From Prochlorococcus sp. AG-363-P06 (lineage in GTDB: Bacteria > Cyanobacteriota > Cyanobacteriia > PCC-6307 > Cyanobiaceae): a DNA stretch of 35,282 bases. The position numbers and the translations under genes were made by a program. Each line of letters begins with the position of its first letter. Within the stretch, counting starts at the first letter, position 1. Below are positions 2,457 through 35,282 of this stretch, one piece after another. Under the pieces are notes generated by a model. It worked only from the letters and a program-made list of their open reading frames with translations. It searched no databases and was not told the DNA's origin. The stretch lies in the NCBI GenBank assembly GCA_003280025.1, contig QCGD01000016.1, forward strand, positions 1 to 35,282. Direction: 5' to 3'.

Positions 2457-2486
2457 TTGAAAAACTTTACTAGTGCCTAATATAAT
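2457..2486 (+). promoter_or_regulatory. Putative sigma-70 promoter for the double protease gene
   Basis: TTGAAA (2457-2462) and TATAAT (2481-2486) are separated by 18 bp, about 50 nt before the start codon at 2537. The -35 overlaps a small palindrome (AAGTTTTT..AAAAACTT), which could be an operator or chance AT symmetry. Confidence 0.5.
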
Positions 2487-2536: not shown

Positions 2537-4816
2537 ATGAAAAAAGCTGTTACTAATTGCTTAAGATGCGGAGCTCCTATAAATCCTCCTAAAAGTGGAC
2601 ACTATAATTGTGAATTTTGTGGAGCACCATATTTTGCAGGAGGAATATTTGCGAGAAGCGTGCATTATGTAAAAAGTGTTTCTGAAACTCAAGGATTTAA
2701 TTCTTCAATAGTTATTCCAGCAGGATTAGGAAGTATTTTATTAGCATTGTTAATTTTTAGATATCCTTCTTTCCAAAAAAATCAAGATCAAAATATACCC
2801 GTAAATTTTAATAAATGTAGCAATAAAGAAAATTCAACTCAGAAAGTATTTAAAAAAACTATTGATGGAGTTGTTGGAGTAACAACAAATTCTGGCATAG
2901 GTTCGGGTTTTATTATTCGTCATAAAAATAATAAGTCCTATATACTTACCAATTCTCATGTAATCAAAGGATCTAGAAAGGTAAAAGTTACTTTGAAAAA
3001 TGGATATACAAATTCTGCGATAGTAATTTCAGATGCTGGAGATAACTATCCAATTAATGATTTAGCTATTCTTGAGGTAAATGGAAAAATTGGAAAAGTT
3101 TTAAATTTAAATCATAATCTTCCAAGTATTGGAAGTAATGTAATAGCGATAGGATCACCAGAAGGGTTAGATTTTACTCTTACTAGAGGCATAGTTAGTT
3201 CATTGAGAGAGCAGGGCAATATTATTCAATCTGATGTTGCCTTAAACCCAGGAAATTCAGGGGGACCACTTATTGATGAATACGGATGTGTTACAGGTAT
3301 TAATACAATGGGACTTATTGAATCTGAAGGCCTAAACTTCGCTATATCAGCAAAAAGAATCAAGTCTTACATAGATACACAAAAATATCTCGATCTAACC
3401 CTAAATCGAACTCCAAAACGATCACAAATAACAACTAATCAAAGATTTATTGGAAATTTAGGTAATACTAAATCGGCGGCTTACAAAAGAGCCAAAAAAA
3501 TAATGGACCCTGATCTCTACTTGACTTACAGGATTACTGAAAGAATTTTAGAATCAAATAATATTAAAAGACCGATAAGAATAGCTGTTAGAAAAGGAGC
3601 TGATTGCATAGGAACACTTGGCTTAGATCCAAATAGTAGTAAATGCTGGTCAGCTCAGTTACTACCAGACATAGATAAAATTACAAACTTTGATATTTGG
3701 GCATCTCAAGTTATTAATACTATGGCAGGTCAAGCTAATGCTTTTGCAAATAGCGATTCTGGATTTTTATTCGTTAACAAAGCATTATTAAAAGAACTAA
3801 AGGGACGTCCTGAGCAATTAGCTTGTGTCATTTCTCATGAATTAGCACATATAACTCAAAATCATACTGAGGCGAAAAGAAAGGCACGTTTTAAATATGA
3901 TTCGATAGCAGCTTCAAGAATCTCTGAAAGGATAGTGAAATTAAAGAAAAGACAACAAGGTAATAATTTTATGGCAGCCGTGATAGCAGGTATTTCAGAT
4001 AGTTACTCAGGTACTAATACTTCAGTTAATCAATTATCAAATCGAATTGCTTTGAATAATCTTGCATCTCAAATGTTAGCTCCACAGATAATTGAAAAAG
4101 CCATGAAATATTCACCCGTAATTGCAAAATCAATTACTAAAATGCAAGGATTAAGTCCAGAATATGTGAACAAAGGATTCAGCTATCTTGATAGCTACTT
4201 AAGAGATTCAACACTTTCTCTAACTGCTTTTAGCAGAGGTCTTGAATATGAGGCAGATTTATTAGGTACTCAATATGCCGCGAGTGCAGGGTTTGATGAA
4301 AAAAAATGTCTGAAATTATGGACAGAAACAATGCCTCATGATACTGATAAATTAGTTGCAAGATTACTGCCTCCAGGAATCTCTGATCCAGGTAAAAAGC
4401 AACCTGAAATATTCATTAACAAGAAAAAAAACCAAGAATTAGAGTATGACCCAGATTGTAAAGTTAGATACAAAGTAAGAGCGGATAGGTTACTTGAACG
4501 AAAATGTAAACTAATTGCAAAAGGAGAAATAAAACCTTCAGAGAAAATAAGTGATGAAACCTTAGAGATACTAAGTACTCATCCAAGTGATGAAAGGAGA
4601 GCTAATGCTATAAGAGAACATATTGAAAATAAAAATTTATTTAATATATTTAGAGCTGCTGGGAAGCAAAACAGATCGAAGAATACCATGAGAGATTGGA
4701 GCTATGATAAAGATTCAGATAGTCTTGTCATTTCTGACATTGAAAAAGATCCTAAACTAGTTGGTTTAGGAAAAACAGGCACAACTGGAATTAATATTGA
4801 TAAATTTTTAGATTAG
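2537..4816 (+). CDS. Zinc-ribbon / membrane / HtrA-like serine protease / M48 metalloprotease fusion
   Basis: One 759-residue chain with four recognisable parts. Residues 8-28 form a CxxC...CxxC zinc ribbon (Cys8, 11, 25, 28). Residues 57-75 form a single membrane segment. Residues about 105-285 are a trypsin-fold HtrA/Deg-like protease with a visible triad: His141 in TNSHV, Asp175 in NDLAIL, Ser241 in NPGNSGGP. No PDZ domain follows it. Residues about 320-640 are an M48 peptidase with HELAH (434-438) and the third metal ligand probably Glu570 in SRGLEYEAD. All catalytic residues are present in both domains, so both should be active. Topology of the zinc ribbon relative to the proteases is unclear. 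The likely role is membrane-associated protein quality control; this is inference. The ATG at 2537 gives the ribbon intact and sits behind a good promoter. Confidence 0.85.
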   Translation: MKKAVTNCLRCGAPINPPKSGHYNCEFCGAPYFAGGIFARSVHYVKSVSETQGFNSSIVIPAGLGSILLALLIFRYPSFQKNQDQNIPVNFNKCSNKENSTQKVFKKTIDGVVGVTTNSGIGSGFIIRHKNNKSYILTNSHVIKGSRKVKVTLKNGYTNSAIVISDAGDNYPINDLAILEVNGKIGKVLNLNHNLPSIGSNVIAIGSPEGLDFTLTRGIVSSLREQGNIIQSDVALNPGNSGGPLIDEYGCVTGINTMGLIESEGLNFAISAKRIKSYIDTQKYLDLTLNRTPKRSQITTNQRFIGNLGNTKSAAYKRAKKIMDPDLYLTYRITERILESNNIKRPIRIAVRKGADCIGTLGLDPNSSKCWSAQLLPDIDKITNFDIWASQVINTMAGQANAFANSDSGFLFVNKALLKELKGRPEQLACVISHELAHITQNHTEAKRKARFKYDSIAASRISERIVKLKKRQQGNNFMAAVIAGISDSYSGTNTSVNQLSNRIALNNLASQMLAPQIIEKAMKYSPVIAKSITKMQGLSPEYVNKGFSYLDSYLRDSTLSLTAFSRGLEYEADLLGTQYAASAGFDEKKCLKLWTETMPHDTDKLVARLLPPGISDPGKKQPEIFINKKKNQELEYDPDCKVRYKVRADRLLERKCKLIAKGEIKPSEKISDETLEILSTHPSDERRANAIREHIENKNLFNIFRAAGKQNRSKNTMRDWSYDKDSDSLVISDIEKDPKLVGLGKTGTTGINIDKFLD

Positions 4817-6130: not shown

Positions 6131-6184
6131 TAAAATAAAATTACCTACCAAATGCCTGTTATAGCAAGCAGTCTGATAGGTAAC
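6131..6184 (-). terminator. Intrinsic terminator after the 6S RNA
   Basis: On the minus strand TTACCTATCA pairs with TGGTAGGTAA over 10 positions (one G-U), with further pairing inside, followed by TTTTATTTTA (6140-6131). It is a good intrinsic terminator for the RNA transcribed from upstream on the minus strand. Confidence 0.6.
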
Positions 6185-6352
6185 ACCGAATCGCCGTCAG
6201 TTCTCTGATGCATCGACCTGGAAAAGCCAGAAGAGGAGACAAAGTGAGCTTTCGTTTCCGGTTACAAGACCGGTTTACTGCCACGTCACGACAGTATCCT
6301 CATGTCGAAAGAGAGTCAGATCAGAGCACATAAAGAAGAACTTAACCAAAGA
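6141..6352 (-). ncRNA. ssaA: Probable 6S RNA
   Basis: The region just downstream of purK is much richer in G+C than its surroundings and does not code for protein. Read on the minus strand, a 5' segment GTGCTCTGAT (6329-6320) pairs with ATCAGAGAAC (6209-6200) with one mismatch, enclosing about 110 nt of partly paired sequence, as the closing stem and open bubble of 6S RNA would. A -10-like TAATAC (6364-6359) suggests a start near 6352. A strong hairpin (6184-6141) followed by TTTTATTTTA forms the 3' end. It is established that the cyanobacterial 6S gene (ssaA) lies next to purK, which matches the position. 6S RNA binds the housekeeping RNA polymerase and tunes transcription. Ends are approximate, and identity rests on location plus fold, not on alignment. 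Confidence 0.65.
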
Positions 6353-6380
6353 CTCAGTGTATTAACTTTAACTTATTTTT

Positions 6381-7572
6381 TTATTCATGTGGAGAAGGCC
6401 ATATGTCTCTTACCTTCGTTAATATTTCTTGGGATTCCTCATATCTTTCTAAATGAGTTTTACCATTTAACAAGAATGTAATATGAGCCATTTTTCTTCC
6501 CGGGGTTTCCTGAGATTTACCGTACAAATGCAAATTAGAACCATTTATTTTAGATAACATTTTGATTCGTGCTTCTATTGAGGTTGGGAAATCATTTTTT
6601 AATCCAAGCAAATTTATCATAATTGCGCCTTCACAGTTCATTTTAATTTCAGGTGGTTTAATACCAGAAGAAATACAAACATATTGATCAAACTGACTTG
6701 AAGAACACGCTTCAATAGAGAAATGAGCAGAATTATGAGTTCTAGGAGCTATTTCATTAATTAATAGGCCATTAACTCCATAAAAAAATTCAATTCCCAA
6801 AACTCCTACATAGTTAAGTTGATTTACTATTGAAGAAAAAATATTTAGCGCAAATAAATTTAAATCATAATCTGTTGAGGCAGGAGACAATACCCAATCA
6901 CAAACGTGATTTGATTGGAACGTTTCTACTATTGGAAATACTCTTATCTTGCCATTATGATCTCTAGAACCTACAAGAGCTAACTCATGTTCAAAATCTA
7001 TCCATTCCTCAATTAACCATTCATCAGAATTATTCTCAGTCAAAAAATAATCTAGTTCTTCTTTATTTTTTATTTTTTTTATTGCCTTTACCATCGTATC
7101 CTCCTTTATTTGATTTTGCCATAAGAGGAAAACTCCAATTTTGAATTTCCTCTTCCGAGAGACTTTTAAGGTCTTTAATAGAAATCCATTTTGGGCTCGG
7201 AATATTAATACTATCTATTAATTTTTTTTGAGAAATCCTATCTACTAAAGGTTTAATTGCATCAAGGCTAGGAATAAAAATGTTTTTGGTATCAATTAAA
7301 TTTAATTTATCAATTTTTATCCATTCATTTTCAAAAATTATTCTTTCACACTCATTTATTAAGGACTTATTTCCATTTATCTGTAAAGGATCCTCTTCTA
7401 TTACATAATCCGCTTTAAAACCTGCAGGATCGTTAGAAGATTTTGTTTGCACACATACTTCTAAACCTCTATTTTTTGCTGCTTCAGTTAACATCAACGC
7501 AAGTTGGCCACCACCAATTATTCCTAGAGAATAATTTTTATGTCTATTGTTTATATTTTTTTTAAAGCTCAT
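6381..7572 (-). pseudogene. purK: PurK, N5-carboxyaminoimidazole ribonucleotide synthase, frameshifted
   Basis: PurK is an ATP-grasp enzyme of purine synthesis that carboxylates AIR with bicarbonate. The N-terminal part (start 7572) has the GIIGGGQLALML motif and ends after KGGYDGKGN. The rest, in another frame, runs from KNKEELDYF through NEIAPRTHNSAHFSIEAC to the C-terminal GKMAHI-like region (GRKMAHITFL). The frames join in an A8 run on the coding strand (plus-strand T8 at 7073-7080). Removing one A gives the continuous sequence GKGNKKIKNKEELDYF and a normal 396-residue PurK. Apart from this one base all expected motifs are intact. This looks like a recent mutation or a homopolymer sequencing error, or slippage-tolerant expression. 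It diverges from aroB across 123 bp and runs toward the 6S RNA gene. Confidence 0.88.
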
Positions 7573-11710: not shown

Positions 11711-12679
11711 CTGAACAGCATAACTTCTACTGCCAAAAAGCAATCTCTTATAAATGAAGAAGATTTAATTTCTGAAATAAAAGAGCGTTGCTTAAAATCT
11801 AATGCCATAATTTTGGCACACTATTATCAAGCACCCGAGATTCAAGATATTGCTGATTTCATTGGGGATTCTTTGGATCTATCAAGAAAAGCTGCGAATA
11901 ATAATGCAGATATAATAATTTTTTGCGGTGTACACTTTATGGCAGAAACTGCGAAAATACTTAGCCCAAACAAAACTGTCTTGTTACCTGATGTTGATGC
12001 AGGTTGCTCTTTGGCTGACGATTGTCCAGCAGATGAATTTCAAAAGTTTAGGAATGAGAATTCAGACCATTTTGTCGTGAGTTACATAAATTGCACCGCA
12101 GAAGTAAAAGCCCAGAGCGACCTGATATGTACAAGCAGCAATGCAGTTTCCTTAGTTGAACAGATACCTAAAGATAAAAAAATAATTTTTGCACCCGATC
12201 AAAACCTTGGAAGATGGGTGCAGAAAAAATCAGGAAGAGTTCTTAAACTGTGGCCTGGCAGCTGTATTGTGCATGAAACTTTTAGTGAAGAAGCTTTATT
12301 AAAATTGAAATATCAAAATCCAGCAGCAAAAGTAATAGCGCATCCTGAATGCAGTCAAAATTTATTGGCACTTTCAGATTTTATTGGTTCAACGAGTAAA
12401 TTACTTGATTTCGTCAGTAAGGATCCATCTGAAATTTATATGGTTTTAACTGAGCCTGGAATAATACATCAAATGAAAAAGAGAGAGCCTAACAAAGTCT
12501 TTATTGAAGTTCCTGACATAGAAGGATGTAAATGTAATGAATGTCCATATATGAAATTAAATACTTTAGAAAAAATTCTTGATTGTTTAAAAAATAATTC
12601 ACCTTCTATTAAACTAGATCCAGAAATAATTAAAAAAGCATACAAACCAATAAAGAGAATGTTAGAAATGAGTAATTAA
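11711..12679 (+). CDS. nadA: NadA, quinolinate synthase
   Basis: NadA condenses iminoaspartate with dihydroxyacetone phosphate to quinolinate in NAD synthesis and needs a [4Fe-4S] cluster. The sequence carries AIILAHYYQAPEIQDIAD, then GDSLDLSRKA, GVHFMAETAKILSP and IFAPDQNLGRWV. The three probable cluster cysteines are in AGCSLAD, PGSCIVH and GCKCNECP. The family normally has an N-terminal helix before AHYY; here it is encoded (DLISEIKERCLKSN) but upstream of any ATG, GTG or TTG. The in-frame stop TAA (11705-11707) is followed by ATC then CTG, so CTG at 11711 is the likely start (322 residues). The stop overlaps that of the convergent S41 protease by 4 nt. Confidence 0.9.
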   Translation: MNSITSTAKKQSLINEEDLISEIKERCLKSNAIILAHYYQAPEIQDIADFIGDSLDLSRKAANNNADIIIFCGVHFMAETAKILSPNKTVLLPDVDAGCSLADDCPADEFQKFRNENSDHFVVSYINCTAEVKAQSDLICTSSNAVSLVEQIPKDKKIIFAPDQNLGRWVQKKSGRVLKLWPGSCIVHETFSEEALLKLKYQNPAAKVIAHPECSQNLLALSDFIGSTSKLLDFVSKDPSEIYMVLTEPGIIHQMKKREPNKVFIEVPDIEGCKCNECPYMKLNTLEKILDCLKNNSPSIKLDPEIIKKAYKPIKRMLEMSN

Positions 12680-14025
12680 TAAAGTGAAAAAACTAAATTC
12701 TTTTCATTATTTTTTATAAAGGCATTTAAATTAGTAGTCTTAGGATTAAACTCACTTATTTTATTTTTAATTTGAATTATCTTGATTAGTTCTTTCTCGC
12801 CTACTTTATATTGTTTATCTCTTCTAGTTCCAATTTCTCCAGGGAGAATTGGATTGTTATTCATTTTTACTTCTATATCAGGACTAATGCCAAATTTGTT
12901 TATGTCTGTTCCATTGGGAGTCAAATACTTGGCGACTGTAACTGTTAATCCTGATCCATCTACCAAAGTTCTCATTGATTGAACAAGACCTTTACCAAAA
13001 GTTTTCTTGCCAACTAATATACCTCGTTTGTTATCTTTAATTGCACCAGAAACTATTTCACTAGCACTGGCAGATCCTTCATTAACAAGTACAACTAATG
13101 GCTTGTTTGTTAAAGCTTGACCATTACCTCTTTTGATTTCTTTCATGCCGTCTTTAGTTAAGGTGCTTACTATTATTCCTTTATTAATAAATTGCCTTGA
13201 GACATCAATACTTGACTCTAATAAACCTCCAGGATTACTTCTCAAATCGAGTATATAACCAGAAACTTTTTTTGTTTCTAAATCTTTGAGAGCATCCTTC
13301 ATCTCTCTCGAGGCATTGGCATTAAATTGTTTAATTCGCAAATAGCCTATTAATAAATCGTTTTTAGCTTTGTTTATTTTGCTTGAAACTGATTTTATTT
13401 CTATTTTTTCTCTCGTTAATGATTTATAAAAAGAATTACCAGCTCTAAGAATTTCTAGCTTAACAACAGTTCCTCTTTCACCTCTTATTAATTTAACAGC
13501 ATCCTCAATATCCATGCCTTTAGTAGAGATATCATCAATAGATAATATTTTATCTCTAGCTTTAATTCCTGCGTAATAGGCTGGAGTTCCTTCAATAGGA
13601 GAGACAATTATTAAATTATCAGATTCTTTATCTTTAACTATCTGAATCCCAACTCCAGTTAATTCCCCTGAAGTATCAATTCTCATTTGATTAAATTCCT
13701 TTGGATCTAAAAATCTAGTGTAGGGATCTTCTAAATTTGACAATAAATCTCTAATGGCATCATAAGCTTCATTGCTATCTGAGTATTTTCTTGATAATAA
13801 TTCTTTTCTTAAATCAATCCAATTAGATTTTTCAAACTTTCCATTTGAATCAAGAAAATCTCTATATACAATTTGCCAAACATGATCAATTACCTCTTTG
13901 TAGCTATTATTTAAGATTGTGGCTCCTGCGTAATTATTAGCAAATATTCCAGAAAAACTACTGGTCAATAAAATTACAAATTGCGTTTTAAGAATTTTTT
14001 TTATTTTAAAAGATTTATAAAGCAT
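12676..14025 (-). CDS. S41 carboxyl-terminal processing protease (Ctp family)
   Basis: A 449-residue exported protease. Residues 11-34 form a signal segment. A helical N-terminal region is followed by the conserved LEDPYTRFLDPKEF (98-111), a PDZ domain (about 120-195, GVGIQIV to VKLEILR) and the S41 catalytic domain. The Ser/Lys dyad fits Ser320 in GSASASEI and Lys345 in KTFGKG, 25 residues apart as in the family. In cyanobacteria one member (CtpA) matures the photosystem II D1 protein; there are usually several paralogues and I cannot tell which this is, so no symbol is given. ispG lies upstream on the same strand with a gap of about 50 bp. Confidence 0.9.
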   Translation of the reverse strand: MLYKSFKIKKILKTQFVILLTSSFSGIFANNYAGATILNNSYKEVIDHVWQIVYRDFLDSNGKFEKSNWIDLRKELLSRKYSDSNEAYDAIRDLLSNLEDPYTRFLDPKEFNQMRIDTSGELTGVGIQIVKDKESDNLIIVSPIEGTPAYYAGIKARDKILSIDDISTKGMDIEDAVKLIRGERGTVVKLEILRAGNSFYKSLTREKIEIKSVSSKINKAKNDLLIGYLRIKQFNANASREMKDALKDLETKKVSGYILDLRSNPGGLLESSIDVSRQFINKGIIVSTLTKDGMKEIKRGNGQALTNKPLVVLVNEGSASASEIVSGAIKDNKRGILVGKKTFGKGLVQSMRTLVDGSGLTVTVAKYLTPNGTDINKFGISPDIEVKMNNNPILPGEIGTRRDKQYKVGEKELIKIIQIKNKISEFNPKTTNLNAFIKNNEKNLVFSLY

Positions 14026-30980: not shown

Positions 30981-31046
30981 AAAAAAGTAGCAACCGCTAC
31001 CAAAACGTTCAACTTGTACATAACAAGCCGCAAGTCGATCTAAGCC

Positions 31047-31082
31047 ATGGAACGGGGACTTAGACGTAAAAAAGGAGCTTAA
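31047..31082 (+). CDS. Possible 11-residue leader peptide (uORF)
   Basis: An ATG frame MERGLRRKKGA ends 4 nt before the DUF4278 start codon and runs through its ribosome-binding site. Basic residues are enriched. Translation of it would cover the GGAG site of the downstream gene. It could also be chance within a structured RNA. Confidence 0.2.
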   Translation: MERGLRRKKGA

Positions 31083-31086
31083 AAAA

Positions 31087-31188
31087 ATGACTCTAATTTA
31101 TAGAGGACAAAAGTACGTCCAAAACAAACAAATTGCAAAGAAGCAACACCTTGAACTAACTTACAGAGGAAAATCTTACACAAGTTAG
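31087..31188 (+). CDS. DUF4278-type micro-protein
   Basis: A 33-residue protein too short for standard gene calling. It contains two copies of the YRG motif, LIYRGQKY (3-10) and LTYRGKSY (24-31), characteristic of DUF4278. GGAG lies about 11 nt before the ATG, after an A-rich stretch. It has its own promoter-like -10, a structured leader of about 100 nt and a strong terminator after it, so it is a single-gene unit. Function is unknown. Confidence 0.7.
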   Translation: MTLIYRGQKYVQNKQIAKKQHLELTYRGKSYTS

Positions 31189-31707: not shown

Positions 31708-32991
31708 ATGATAAAAATTTTAAAATTTATAAAATTGAAATCTAAAAAAGGAAAATTCTTTTACTCTGGTTTTTTGGGTTTAATTTCTTTATTAATTATT
31801 CCAGAGAGGGTTTATTCTACTCCAAGTACTTATTTCGAAGAGAGAAGGGAATGTATTGAAAACCCTGATTTTATATCCCCAAGCACAGAAGAATATAAGT
31901 ATTGTTTAAAGGACAATGGAATAATAAAAAAATATGATAAGTTTGATAATTTAGTTGAAATCGACTTAAAGCTTAATGAACTAGTTAAAGAAAAAATTAA
32001 AAAAGAAAATAAGAAAATAGGAAATAAGACGATTCAAGTTAGGAATCCGTTTAGAGAATTAACTGAATACAAAATAGATGATGAAGAACTTGTTAAATAT
32101 TCATGTAAAGCTAAAAAAGAAAGAGGTAAATTAATTTGCAAAAATAAAGGCCAAAAAATATTAGTTGGGATAAGGCCAAAAGGATTTTATTTAAAGAAAG
32201 GCTTAAAAGAAATTGAGAATAGAAAATGGGATAAATCTATTAAGTTTTTTGATAAAGAAATTGAATATAACAAGAATCAAGAGGCTTATGCACTTAGAGG
32301 CTTTTCAAAATTCAAATTGGAAAACTATTTAGGTTCTATTTCTGATTTAGGGGATGCTTTAAAAATAAAAAAGTCAGATGTTTTTTCTCTTAGCCTTAGA
32401 AGTAGAGCAAATTTTAAAGTTGAAAATTATCAGGATGTAATATCTGATTTAAACAAACTTATTGCATTAATAGAATTCAAATCAAAGAGAGAAGCTAGTG
32501 AATTGTTTAACAAAGAAATTAATCCAGTGGATCCTAATTATTTTTATTTAAGAGGATTAGCAAAAAGTGAATTAGGAGATTCAAATGGAGCAATAAAAGA
32601 TTTTGATTTGGAAATAATTAATAATCCATTAAATGGTGATGCATATTTTCAAAGAGGATTGGAAACATATTGGGAAGAAAGAGAGGAAGCCTGTCAAGAT
32701 TTAATTAAAGGCATTTCATTAGGAGCCGTAGATTCAAGCTCTAATTTTATAAAAGAGAATCCAAAATCGAATTCATTCGTCGATGAACTTTTTAGTGGGA
32801 ATGAGAAATCATTAATTGATGCATGCAAAAGTTCAAGTACAAGAAAAGTAGAGAATATTAAGCAAAACTATGAAACAGAGAAGTTAAATAAAGATCTCAT
32901 AAACCTTTTTAAAAATTATTACTTTCTAATACCTATACCTTTTTTAGTGATTGGATACATTATTTTAAAATACAGGTCAGATGATGAATAA
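31708..32991 (+). CDS. TPR-repeat protein with signal segment and C-terminal membrane anchor
   Basis: A 427-residue protein. Residues about 17-37 form an N-terminal hydrophobic segment (signal or anchor) ending near YSTPS. A middle Lys-rich region precedes TPR-like repeats from about residue 165 to 360, with units such as KEIEYNKNQEAYALRGFSK, DVFSLSLRSRANFKV, NYFYLRGLAKSELGDSNGAI and NGDAYFQRGLETY. Residues about 400-420 form a C-terminal membrane segment (YYFLIPIPFLVIGYIILKY). TPR domains bind protein partners; the partner is unknown. It is followed by an SPFH/SHOCT gene and an unknown membrane protein on the same strand. Confidence 0.7.
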   Translation: MIKILKFIKLKSKKGKFFYSGFLGLISLLIIPERVYSTPSTYFEERRECIENPDFISPSTEEYKYCLKDNGIIKKYDKFDNLVEIDLKLNELVKEKIKKENKKIGNKTIQVRNPFRELTEYKIDDEELVKYSCKAKKERGKLICKNKGQKILVGIRPKGFYLKKGLKEIENRKWDKSIKFFDKEIEYNKNQEAYALRGFSKFKLENYLGSISDLGDALKIKKSDVFSLSLRSRANFKVENYQDVISDLNKLIALIEFKSKREASELFNKEINPVDPNYFYLRGLAKSELGDSNGAIKDFDLEIINNPLNGDAYFQRGLETYWEEREEACQDLIKGISLGAVDSSSNFIKENPKSNSFVDELFSGNEKSLIDACKSSSTRKVENIKQNYETEKLNKDLINLFKNYYFLIPIPFLVIGYIILKYRSDDE

Positions 32992-33068
32992 AAACTATCT
33001 ATTTATGCTTCAATATCTCTCTAGTGATGTATTCTAGGTTATTATTTAAACCTTGATTTAATTAGAAA

Positions 33069-34043
33069 TTGGCAATCAACACTATTGAAACTAAGAATAC
33101 AGGGGACTATTTGATATGGAAACACCCAAATAGAAATTTAAGTATTGGATCACAAATAATAGTAAATGAAAGTGAAGAGGCTTTATTATTTGAGAATGGA
33201 CAATTATTGCATATACTTCAATCAGGAAAGCACAAAATTGAGTCAGGCAATATACCGGGACTAGATGGAGTTATAAGGAGGTCAATAGGTAACACTCCAG
33301 TTATCAAGATTGATACATGGTTTGTAAGTAAAGTTGTTTCTACCGATTATAAATGGGGGATTCAATTACAAGTTAAAGATAATACTCACCAACTTATTGT
33401 CCCGCTTGGATCTTATGGATCAATTTTACTTAAGATTGAAGATCCTGCTTCATTTGTTATTCAAGTTGTTGGCAAGAATAAAAAATTGAAGAAAGAGGAG
33501 TTAAAGAATTTCATATTGCCATGTATCGAAAGAGTTCTAAAAGAATACATAGCTGAAAAAATAAAAGAAGGAAGTCTTGATATTTTTAGTATAGAGACTG
33601 TTTTAGGAAAGGCATCTGGGAAGGTTAAAGACTCTCTAAAAATTGTTTTTGAAAAATATGGTTTATCAGTAGTTGAATTTTTTGTACAAGGGATTCAAGT
33701 TCAAGGAGAAAGCCCCGAATACAAGAAAATCAAAGAAAGTTTAGCGGATGCCGCTAGTTTAAAGATTAGAGCAAAAGCAGCTTCAGAAGCAAAGGGATTT
33801 TATCGCGATCAAAAAGAGCTAGAAGATTTAAATAAATTAGCCAATGCAGCTCAAGATTTAACAAAAACCGTGGATAAAAAGATATTTAATCAAAAACAAG
33901 ATATAAATAATGAATCAAATAGTTCCCAAAAGACTGGAGATCTAAAAGTTAAGCTGGAGTACTTAAGAGAACTATTAGATTCTGGTTTAATAACTAAAGC
34001 TGATTATGATAAGAAACGTTTTAAATTATTAGATCAATTCTAA
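33069..34043 (+). CDS. SPFH (Band 7)-like protein with C-terminal SHOCT domain
   Basis: A 324-residue protein without an obvious membrane helix. The N-terminal half (IIVNESEEALLFENGQLLHILQSGKHKI and DTWFVSK) matches the YdjI-type SPFH group; an Ala/Lys-rich helix (about 230-275) and a SHOCT motif follow (LEYLRELLDSGLITKADYDKKR, about 295-318). YdjI-type proteins are linked to membrane stress and raft-like assemblies. The start is a TTG at 33069: an in-frame TAG lies just before it and no ATG is near, while the domain begins at once. It is preceded by the TPR gene (77 bp) and followed by a membrane protein (27 bp). Confidence 0.75.
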   Translation: MAINTIETKNTGDYLIWKHPNRNLSIGSQIIVNESEEALLFENGQLLHILQSGKHKIESGNIPGLDGVIRRSIGNTPVIKIDTWFVSKVVSTDYKWGIQLQVKDNTHQLIVPLGSYGSILLKIEDPASFVIQVVGKNKKLKKEELKNFILPCIERVLKEYIAEKIKEGSLDIFSIETVLGKASGKVKDSLKIVFEKYGLSVVEFFVQGIQVQGESPEYKKIKESLADAASLKIRAKAASEAKGFYRDQKELEDLNKLANAAQDLTKTVDKKIFNQKQDINNESNSSQKTGDLKVKLEYLRELLDSGLITKADYDKKRFKLLDQF

Positions 34044-34070
34044 ATTATGACATTATTATTTTTTTAAATT

Positions 34071-34748
34071 ATGAAAAGCATTAAATCTCTACCCTTTGTA
34101 TGGCTACCTTTATTAACTTTATGGACCATAATTTTAGTTCTTTTTAAAAATTTATCTGTAGATAGTATTGAAAATTATATTCCTTTAGTAGTTTACATTC
34201 CAATTTCTTTTGTTTTTTCAACTCAATACGGTCTTTTATTAAAAGATAAAAAAGAATACTTATTCACCAAGATAAGTAGCTCAACTTCAATAATTATTTG
34301 TTTTCTGATTTCTACAATTTCCATATTCTCCTATATGTATAACTTTATAGGTATTCAAACATCCTTACTATTTATAGTTTGTCCATTAGTCGTCAATTTA
34401 ATAATTAATGAGTTTATTTCTTTATCAAATAAAAAATTAGTTTCAAATAAGATGCAATGGGATAATACAAATGTGAAAATCGAAGAAAAACAAATTGAAA
34501 AATCCAAAGAAAATGCAATTTCAAGAGAAGTTTCTGTTTCTAATAGAGAAAAATGGAAAGCTTTTTTGAAAAATGCCTTATTTAATCAATCTAATGATGA
34601 TGTATTCATTTTTGAAGTAAAAAGAATCATGGATATTGTTGAATATAGTTCTTATTTTAGAGATAGTCGTTGTATAGAAGACTTAAAAGAAATTGAGAAA
34701 TCAAAAGATTTTGAATTTGTTATACAGATTCTTAAGCAAATCAAGTAA
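34071..34748 (+). CDS. Hypothetical membrane protein
   Basis: A 225-residue protein with four membrane segments in residues 1-120 and a charged cytoplasmic C-terminal half (KIEEKQIEKSKENAISREV onward). I do not recognise a family. It begins 27 bp after the SPFH/SHOCT gene on the same strand, suggesting a shared transcript and a possible link to membrane organisation. Confidence 0.55.
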   Translation: MKSIKSLPFVWLPLLTLWTIILVLFKNLSVDSIENYIPLVVYIPISFVFSTQYGLLLKDKKEYLFTKISSSTSIIICFLISTISIFSYMYNFIGIQTSLLFIVCPLVVNLIINEFISLSNKKLVSNKMQWDNTNVKIEEKQIEKSKENAISREVSVSNREKWKAFLKNALFNQSNDDVFIFEVKRIMDIVEYSSYFRDSRCIEDLKEIEKSKDFEFVIQILKQIK

Positions 34749-35114: not shown

Positions 35115-35282
35115 GTGAAACTATTTCAAAAATTACTAATTGCTCCTGCAGCATTAGGTCTTTTATCTCCTATAGCAGCAATAGCTAATGAGATTAACTT
35201 TTCTGATGTTTCTGACTACTCTTCAACAGAAGACGTTCAGAATATTAACGAATTTAACGCTAAAGAACTTGCTGTTACTAAT
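35115..35282 (+). CDS. Porin, N-terminal part (cut by the window end)
   Basis: The frame from GTG 35115 runs open to the edge (56 codons). It begins with a signal peptide (MKLFQKLLIAPAALGLLSP, cleavage after AAIA) and continues EINFSDVSDYSS and NEFNAKELAVTN, the start of the SLH-like region found in picocyanobacterial outer-membrane porins (SomA/iron-uptake porin type). This family forms the main outer-membrane channel. The remainder is outside the window, so the C-terminal barrel cannot be checked. Confidence 0.7.
   Translation, partial: MKLFQKLLIAPAALGLLSPIAAIANEINFSDVSDYSSTEDVQNINEFNAKELAVTN

Follow-up and report, generated by a model that had tools for sequence, protein, structure and literature searches.

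A protein of 759 amino acids encoded in the window (the whole stretch of 35,282 nucleotides of Prochlorococcus sp. AG-363-P06 that was analyzed; contig C16 of a source genome of 1.69 Mb in 19 contigs) carries a zinc ribbon, one predicted transmembrane (TM) helix, a trypsin-like domain and an M48 metalloprotease domain on a single chain. By computation it was found that its parts occur in relatives as a mosaic of other combinations, and that in other genomes zinc-ribbon genes lie beside a three-gene cassette that encodes an SPFH protein. We suggest that the protein may be a membrane-anchored double protease assembled from exchangeable modules, and that its ribbon may be a plug for an SPFH platform, with the proteases as exchangeable extracytosolic parts; taken together, we give these two statements an even chance.

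Domain organization of the protease

The protease gene (2537-4816, + strand) is a single uninterrupted open reading frame (ORF) of 759 codons that starts with ATG. Its features are:

2457..2486, + strand: promoter-like site TTGAAA-18-TATAAT, 11/12 consensus match, 50 bases before the ATG
2558..2620, + strand: zinc ribbon C8-x2-C11 ... C25-x2-C28 (CxxCGAP...CEFCG), by motif
2702..2758, + strand: single predicted TM helix, aa 56-74, by hydropathy only
2816..3391, + strand: trypsin-like domain (HtrA-type, no PDZ), ~aa 94-285, with H141/D175/S241 and C94 + C251, by Pfam and alignment
3392..3475, + strand: linker, ~aa 286-313, which aligns with AG-402-K10 from ~aa 288, by alignment
3476..4813, + strand: M48 metalloprotease with a long insert, HELAH 434-438, E570 and six cysteines, by Pfam and alignment

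The promoter-like site is a consensus match alone, in a region where chance would give 19.5 such sites and 15 are present. Over the 100 bases preceding the ATG the sequence is 90% identical in AG-402-K10 (G104), the nearest relative. The ribbon was called from its CxxC...CxxC motif because no Pfam zinc-ribbon model reaches the cut-off (the best is zf-C2HC5, E 0.028). Gly12, Ala13 and Gly29 are invariant across 16 aligned heads, and the ribbon cysteines are too, but most of these rows were selected by that motif. A preliminary description of this DNA had placed a zinc ribbon and a membrane segment ahead of two intact sites of unrelated protease classes, and this layout is confirmed: the CxxC/CxxC motif, the hydrophobic segment 56-74, the triad H141/D175/S241, HELAH and E570 are all present on the one chain.

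In the serine protease part, Trypsin_2 matches at aa 122-255 with an E-value of 2.7e-22, above the Pfam cut-off. The trypsin-like fold with an intact H/D/S triad is shared with the HtrA/Deg proteases, and HhoA, MucD/DegP and DegS are among the best relatives in the PDB. Unlike HtrA/Deg, the protein has an additional cysteine pair and is fused to M48, and Pfam finds no PDZ domain in the ORF; its scores against the HtrA models of NCBIfam lie far below their cut-offs (124.3 bits vs 416.2 for degP_htrA_DO and 110.9 vs 450 for HhoA/HhoB/HtrA). Peptidase_M48 matches in two stretches (E 2.8e-19, the best at 394-446; 70.1 bits vs a Pfam cut-off of 20.3). The sole HExxH of the ORF starts at residue 434, and the downstream Glu stands in an ExxxD, with E570 within GLEYEADLLG; H434, E435, H438, E570 and D574 are invariant in 10 aligned M48 rows. 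HELAH with a downstream Glu is also the arrangement of BepA and HtpX, and among solved chains an M48 peptidase (3c37) and BepA are the closest. In contrast to BepA/HtpX, E570 is 136 residues past H434, there is no TPR part and the TM is single; the BepA and HtpX equivalog models give 32.8 vs a cut-off of 570 and 19.3 vs 422.

Compared with the gene of G104, dN/dS is 0.31 in the head and 0.35 in the M48 part, so the ORF is not a chance one; the trypsin part is without a close relative to compare. The dS values for head (0.181), M48 (0.184) and the SPFH gene (0.165) are alike. AlphaFold models of the whole chain (10-row alignment, mean pLDDT 33) and of the M48 part alone (38) were both too poor to use.

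Relatives of the protease and origin of the trypsin-like module

The preliminary description had also called the combination unusual, and the domain-architecture search bears this out, as head, trypsin and M48 occur together in only one of 266 genus genomes, the source genome itself (the whole protein was searched in 200 genomes, the head and the M48 part each in 266). All 10 named relatives that the search gave belong to Prochlorococcus. Head matches occur in 5/266 genus genomes, one of them weak (G101), by a query that overlooks diverged ribbons, since the ribbon genes of G079, G053 and G253 were not recovered. The M48 part matches in 12/266, with those in G153 and G159 weak and distant. In a phylum sample of 339 genomes the lone strong M48 relative from outside the genus is in G520 (44% identity, a 495-aa frame, no ribbon), and the other matches are weak and lie around HExxH. 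The viral_contigs scan, which reaches close relatives only, gave no relative of the protease; 19 records of the phage collection do match it, all at <60% identity and, among the 12 matches listed, in the trypsin part only. No description of a trypsin-M48 fusion or of a Prochlorococcus SPFH cassette was found in the open-access literature, which is weak evidence of absence.

The relatives carry the same parts in other combinations. In AG-402-K10 (L034) a ribbon-TM-M48 protein lacks trypsin, and its head and M48 are 86-89% identical to those in the window. At the DNA level, every 50-base bin between -100 and +250 shows 90-100% identity of the two genes, which then falls to 30% where the trypsin part starts. 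G105 and G050 have a similar head (~80%) followed by a TPR tail, which Pfam recognizes as TPR in G105. Headless M48 is found in eight genus genomes, and the N-terminus of the three such proteins read (L037, L041, L043) is a short hydrophobic segment. The trypsin subfamily also occurs without the head, at times with TPR, in other genomes; its nearest members found are about 46-56% identical to the window's trypsin part, and the best other copy in the source genome is 46% identical. Another genus holds a second ribbon-TM-trypsin gene (G638, L141; 647 aa), with a TPR tail and beside a cassette, whose head is 21% and whose trypsin is 40% identical to the window's. A trypsin tree of 17 rows chosen among the trypsin loci collected did not resolve the placement of the window's trypsin or whether it shares its origin with that of the G638 fusion, which we therefore call second and not independent. 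Trypsin is missing both from the outgroup heads and from the M48 proteins that have no head, so that its gain in the window's lineage is a more economical explanation than its loss in G104. This gives indirect support to the suggestion that a ribbon-TM-M48 protein was already present in the window's lineage and acquired the trypsin module by insertion.

The SPFH cassette and its ribbon neighbors

The distant ribbon heads of other genera are grouped around a three-gene cassette. The window holds one such cassette, at 31708-34748:

31708..32991, + strand: TPR-like protein (under the Pfam cut-off) with a C-terminal TM, by Pfam and hydropathy
33069..34043, + strand: SPFH protein (Band_7_1, PF13421) with a SHOCT-like C-terminus (under the cut-off) and no TM, by Pfam and hydropathy
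34071..34748, + strand: 225-aa membrane protein (TM225) with four predicted TM and no Pfam family, by Pfam and hydropathy

The SPFH protein matches Band_7_1 with an E-value of 5.9e-23 (82 bits vs a cut-off of 24). Upstream of the cassette a Glutamine-II riboswitch (31003-31064, + strand, 67.9 bits) is followed by a 33-aa ORF (31087-31188). The contig ends 0.5 kb past the cassette inside another open frame (35115-35282), the start of which, judged by eye, is similar to genes that recur near the cassettes of other genomes (L104, L105, L110). These genes may be porin-like, and such a repeat may have stopped the assembly.

SPFH+TM225 loci were gathered from the SPFH query, independently of the ribbon, in 300 family and 265 genus genomes. 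At 15/16 of those outside the source genome a ribbon gene lies 0.7-2.0 kb away; the exception is G530 (L142), with no ribbon gene in the locus read. Within 3 kb of a cassette 19/99 genes are ribbon genes vs 12/433 in 32 other long loci (Fisher 6e-8, with loci that are not independent), where "ribbon" means the motif in the first 60 residues and not a homology call. The controls are all non-cassette long loci with the window excluded; 10 of the 32 have a ribbon gene, and of these seven were included on account of a distant SPFH match (L144, L145, L147, L151, L159, L178, L179) and two are continuations of cassette-genome loci (L092, L098). This count supersedes a first one (17/131 ribbon+TM genes near SPFH vs 8/425) and a second one (15/16 cassette vs 1/16 control loci) that had hand-picked controls and a slightly wider cassette span. 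Excluded from the cassettes were G245 (at a contig end, no TM225 match), G225 (partial), weak SPFH matches, and G378, G230, G135, G162 and G067, which have a distant SPFH gene with no TM225 match.

One possible option is that the protein is a lone envelope protease with a generic ribbon-TM anchor, and that an SPFH cassette is its neighbor elsewhere only through shared variable islands. In the source genome the protease gene and the cassette are indeed 27 kb apart with core genes in between, so they are not one operon here, and headless M48 and trypsin relatives occur in genomes where no cassette was detected. Yet the frequency of ribbon genes within ~2 kb of cassettes and their rarity elsewhere speak against this option. 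So does the distribution of heads in the genus: the head query matched in five of 266 genomes (once weakly), and all five belong to the 14, out of 265, in which the SPFH query matched. We therefore regard the lone-protease option as rather doubtful. The headed M48 gene is accompanied by a cassette in 2/2 genomes, and none of the eight genomes with headless M48, five of which are only 65-81% complete, is among those listed with SPFH+TM225, a listing that names only genomes with a match.

Several distant SPFH relatives that have no TM partner also adjoin ribbon genes, some with odd cysteine counts (L147, L151, L159), so the proximity of ribbon and SPFH is not special to the cassette. Small zinc-ribbon genes were seen near distant SPFH genes of other kinds in L144, L145, L147, L151 and L159, and the pairing may therefore extend beyond the cassette. 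L179 (G135:C3) contains, at 2985-3980 and 11794-13239, a headless M48 gene and a distant SPFH gene (33% identity, no TM partner) that are separated by ~8 kb. Clusters of 3-5 zinc-ribbon-headed genes with differing tails were observed in L093, L095, L097/L098 and L175, and some of the scanned tails have no Pfam family.

Membrane orientation of the tails

The tails that follow the TM in scorable cassette-linked ribbon proteins contain an even number of cysteines in 25/25 cases vs 218/390 other genes, where rows of one locus are related and the 25 tails are not independent. Scoring covered ribbon proteins of >=150 aa whose tail measures >=80 aa and contains one or more cysteines; the most hydrophobic stretch of 19 residues within the first 200 served as the TM. 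Thirty rows passed, of which the 25 even ones come from cassette loci, the extension L098 and the window, and the five odd ones from other loci (L108, L144, L147, L151, L159). Ribbon proteins near cassettes with a short or cysteine-free tail were unscorable (e.g., L143, L176, L177 and one in L097). In the window's trypsin subfamily a cysteine pair, one before the domain and one in a GCV/GCI motif, is present in 13/13 aligned rows and in 0/4 other trypsins, and the N-terminus of the headless trypsin relatives resembles, by eye, a signal peptide. Taken together, the even tail cysteines, this cysteine pair and the signal-peptide-like N-termini suggest, by indirect support, that the tails lie outside the cytosol with disulfides and that the ribbon lies inside. 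The charges that flank the TM (6 K/R before, 4 after) weakly favor the same N-in orientation.

Variable tails on a constant head are reminiscent of conflict systems. Another hypothesis is that the protein is a defense effector, with tails that are released or activated under phage attack. The trypsin part matches the PADLOC RT-Protease_XI models (E 4e-13, aa 90-279), as does the G638 fusion, and it matches the phage family phrog_11383, of unknown function (E 3.8e-33, aa 94-280); the TPR protein of the cassette matches phrog_7590 (E 1.5e-14). Several peptidases per chain and variable effectors are likewise described for multi-peptidase conflict systems, where trypsin and subtilisin domains on one polypeptide (PMC7159879) provide a precedent for two protease classes per chain. 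Against a conflict role, the PADLOC and PHROG matches to the protease span single protease domains, and Pfam finds no nucleotide-switch, nuclease or death-type domain in it. Unlike the conflict systems, no NucA, EAD or NTPase part was found, and the tails are probably extracytosolic. Neither PADLOC nor a set of 50,697 phage records gave a match to the SPFH protein, and its PHROG matches are weak and limited to the C-terminus (E 2.8e-4). We consider a conflict role improbable.

Proposed mechanism of recruitment

In the mechanism that we favor, the cytosolic zinc ribbon would act as a plug for the YdjI-type SPFH scaffold of the three-gene cassette. The single TM helix would take the chain across the membrane, and the trypsin-like and M48 domains would act jointly on the periplasmic side. 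The substrates would probably be misfolded or damaged membrane or envelope proteins that are collected at the SPFH patch, and an anchored double protease recruited to this patch would cleave them on the far side of the membrane. We infer the binding of ribbon to SPFH, the proteolytic activity and the role in quality control.

Several precedents make recruitment to an SPFH patch the most likely mechanism. YdjI of B. subtilis, an SPFH protein predicted to be soluble, requires the TM proteins YdjG and YdjH for its membrane foci (PMC8581546), and YdjG has two zinc ribbons and a TM (PMC11237479). SPFH proteins paired with membrane proteases are described as a recurring theme (PMC2636767), and PF13421 is the family with which SHOCT is most often associated (PMC3581485). 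The cassette shares a TM-less SPFH protein with pspA-ydjGHI, in which this protein is encoded next to a zinc-ribbon TM protein (PMC8581546, PMC11237479); for the cassette, a ribbon gene lies near SPFH at 15/16 loci in other genomes, and in the source genome the two are 27 kb apart. In contrast to that operon, no PspA or TPM match was found among the three cassette proteins, and in contrast to YdjI the cassette SPFH protein ends in a SHOCT-like piece and not in a zinc motif. Unlike YdjG, the ribbon proteins often occur in groups at one locus, and their tails are TPR, M48, trypsin or unassigned. A protease that works with an SPFH scaffold is also known from SPFH proteins with FtsH and from stomatin with a serine protease of the NfeD type (PMC2636767); the window's protein differs from these in that its proteases are of other classes, that it has no ATPase part and that two classes share one anchor.

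The preliminary description had proposed a self-contained quality-control machine. This part of it finds no support, as relatives carry other tails on the same head, ribbon genes lie beside the cassette at 15/16 loci elsewhere, and the search of the source genome gave a single head and a single cassette SPFH. The best reading is instead that the protease is one exchangeable part of a scaffold-linked family. More tentatively, and with somewhat less than an even chance, we propose for marine picocyanobacteria a so far undescribed system with a constant core of SPFH, TPR and TM proteins that would serve as a socket and recruit, via a cytosolic ribbon plug, TM proteins with swapped extracytosolic ends (TPR, M48, trypsin and unknown domains); the window's protein would then be the most elaborate protease form.

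SPFH scaffolds occur in all domains of life, yet the way in which they select client enzymes is little understood. If the proposal is true, a constant cytosolic head with exchanged extracytosolic enzymes would give a direct handle on the recruitment of SPFH clients. It would also show that envelope proteases are engineered by nature in genomes that rank among the smallest of free-living phototrophs.

Integrity of the fusion and downstream features

A further explanation is that domain shuffling in a variable region of the genome gave rise to the fusion as a short-lived product without function. It is seen in a single genome, and the trypsin part is missing from the otherwise close gene of G104. 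However, the frame has no stop codons, the catalytic residues and the paired cysteines are retained, and the dN/dS of head and M48 argues against such a product, while it says nothing on the trypsin part; we think this explanation very improbable. An assembly or amplification chimera is unlikely, and of the explanations weighed here the least probable, since, even though the fusion is found in one genome and the parts are separate in relatives, and even though a frame change splits purK 1.6 kb downstream, both trypsin seams are in frame, no donor was seen (identity is at most ~56% to any other trypsin found), GC is similar across the parts (0.319, 0.315, 0.330) and a second ribbon-trypsin fusion exists in G638. 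The preliminary description had tied its own refutation to relatives with the two domains apart together with an assembly error at the junction. The first half of this stands, as the domains are apart in relatives; an assembly error is unsupported in view of the in-frame seams, the distance of the trypsin relatives and the second fusion.

The two overlapping frames of purK (6381-7094 and 7063-7572, - strand) meet at an A-rich stretch, by a sequencing error or in a broken gene, and base-level errors are therefore possible in this region. Between the protease gene and purK lies a 6S RNA (6179-6363, - strand; Rfam RF00013, 99.8 bits).
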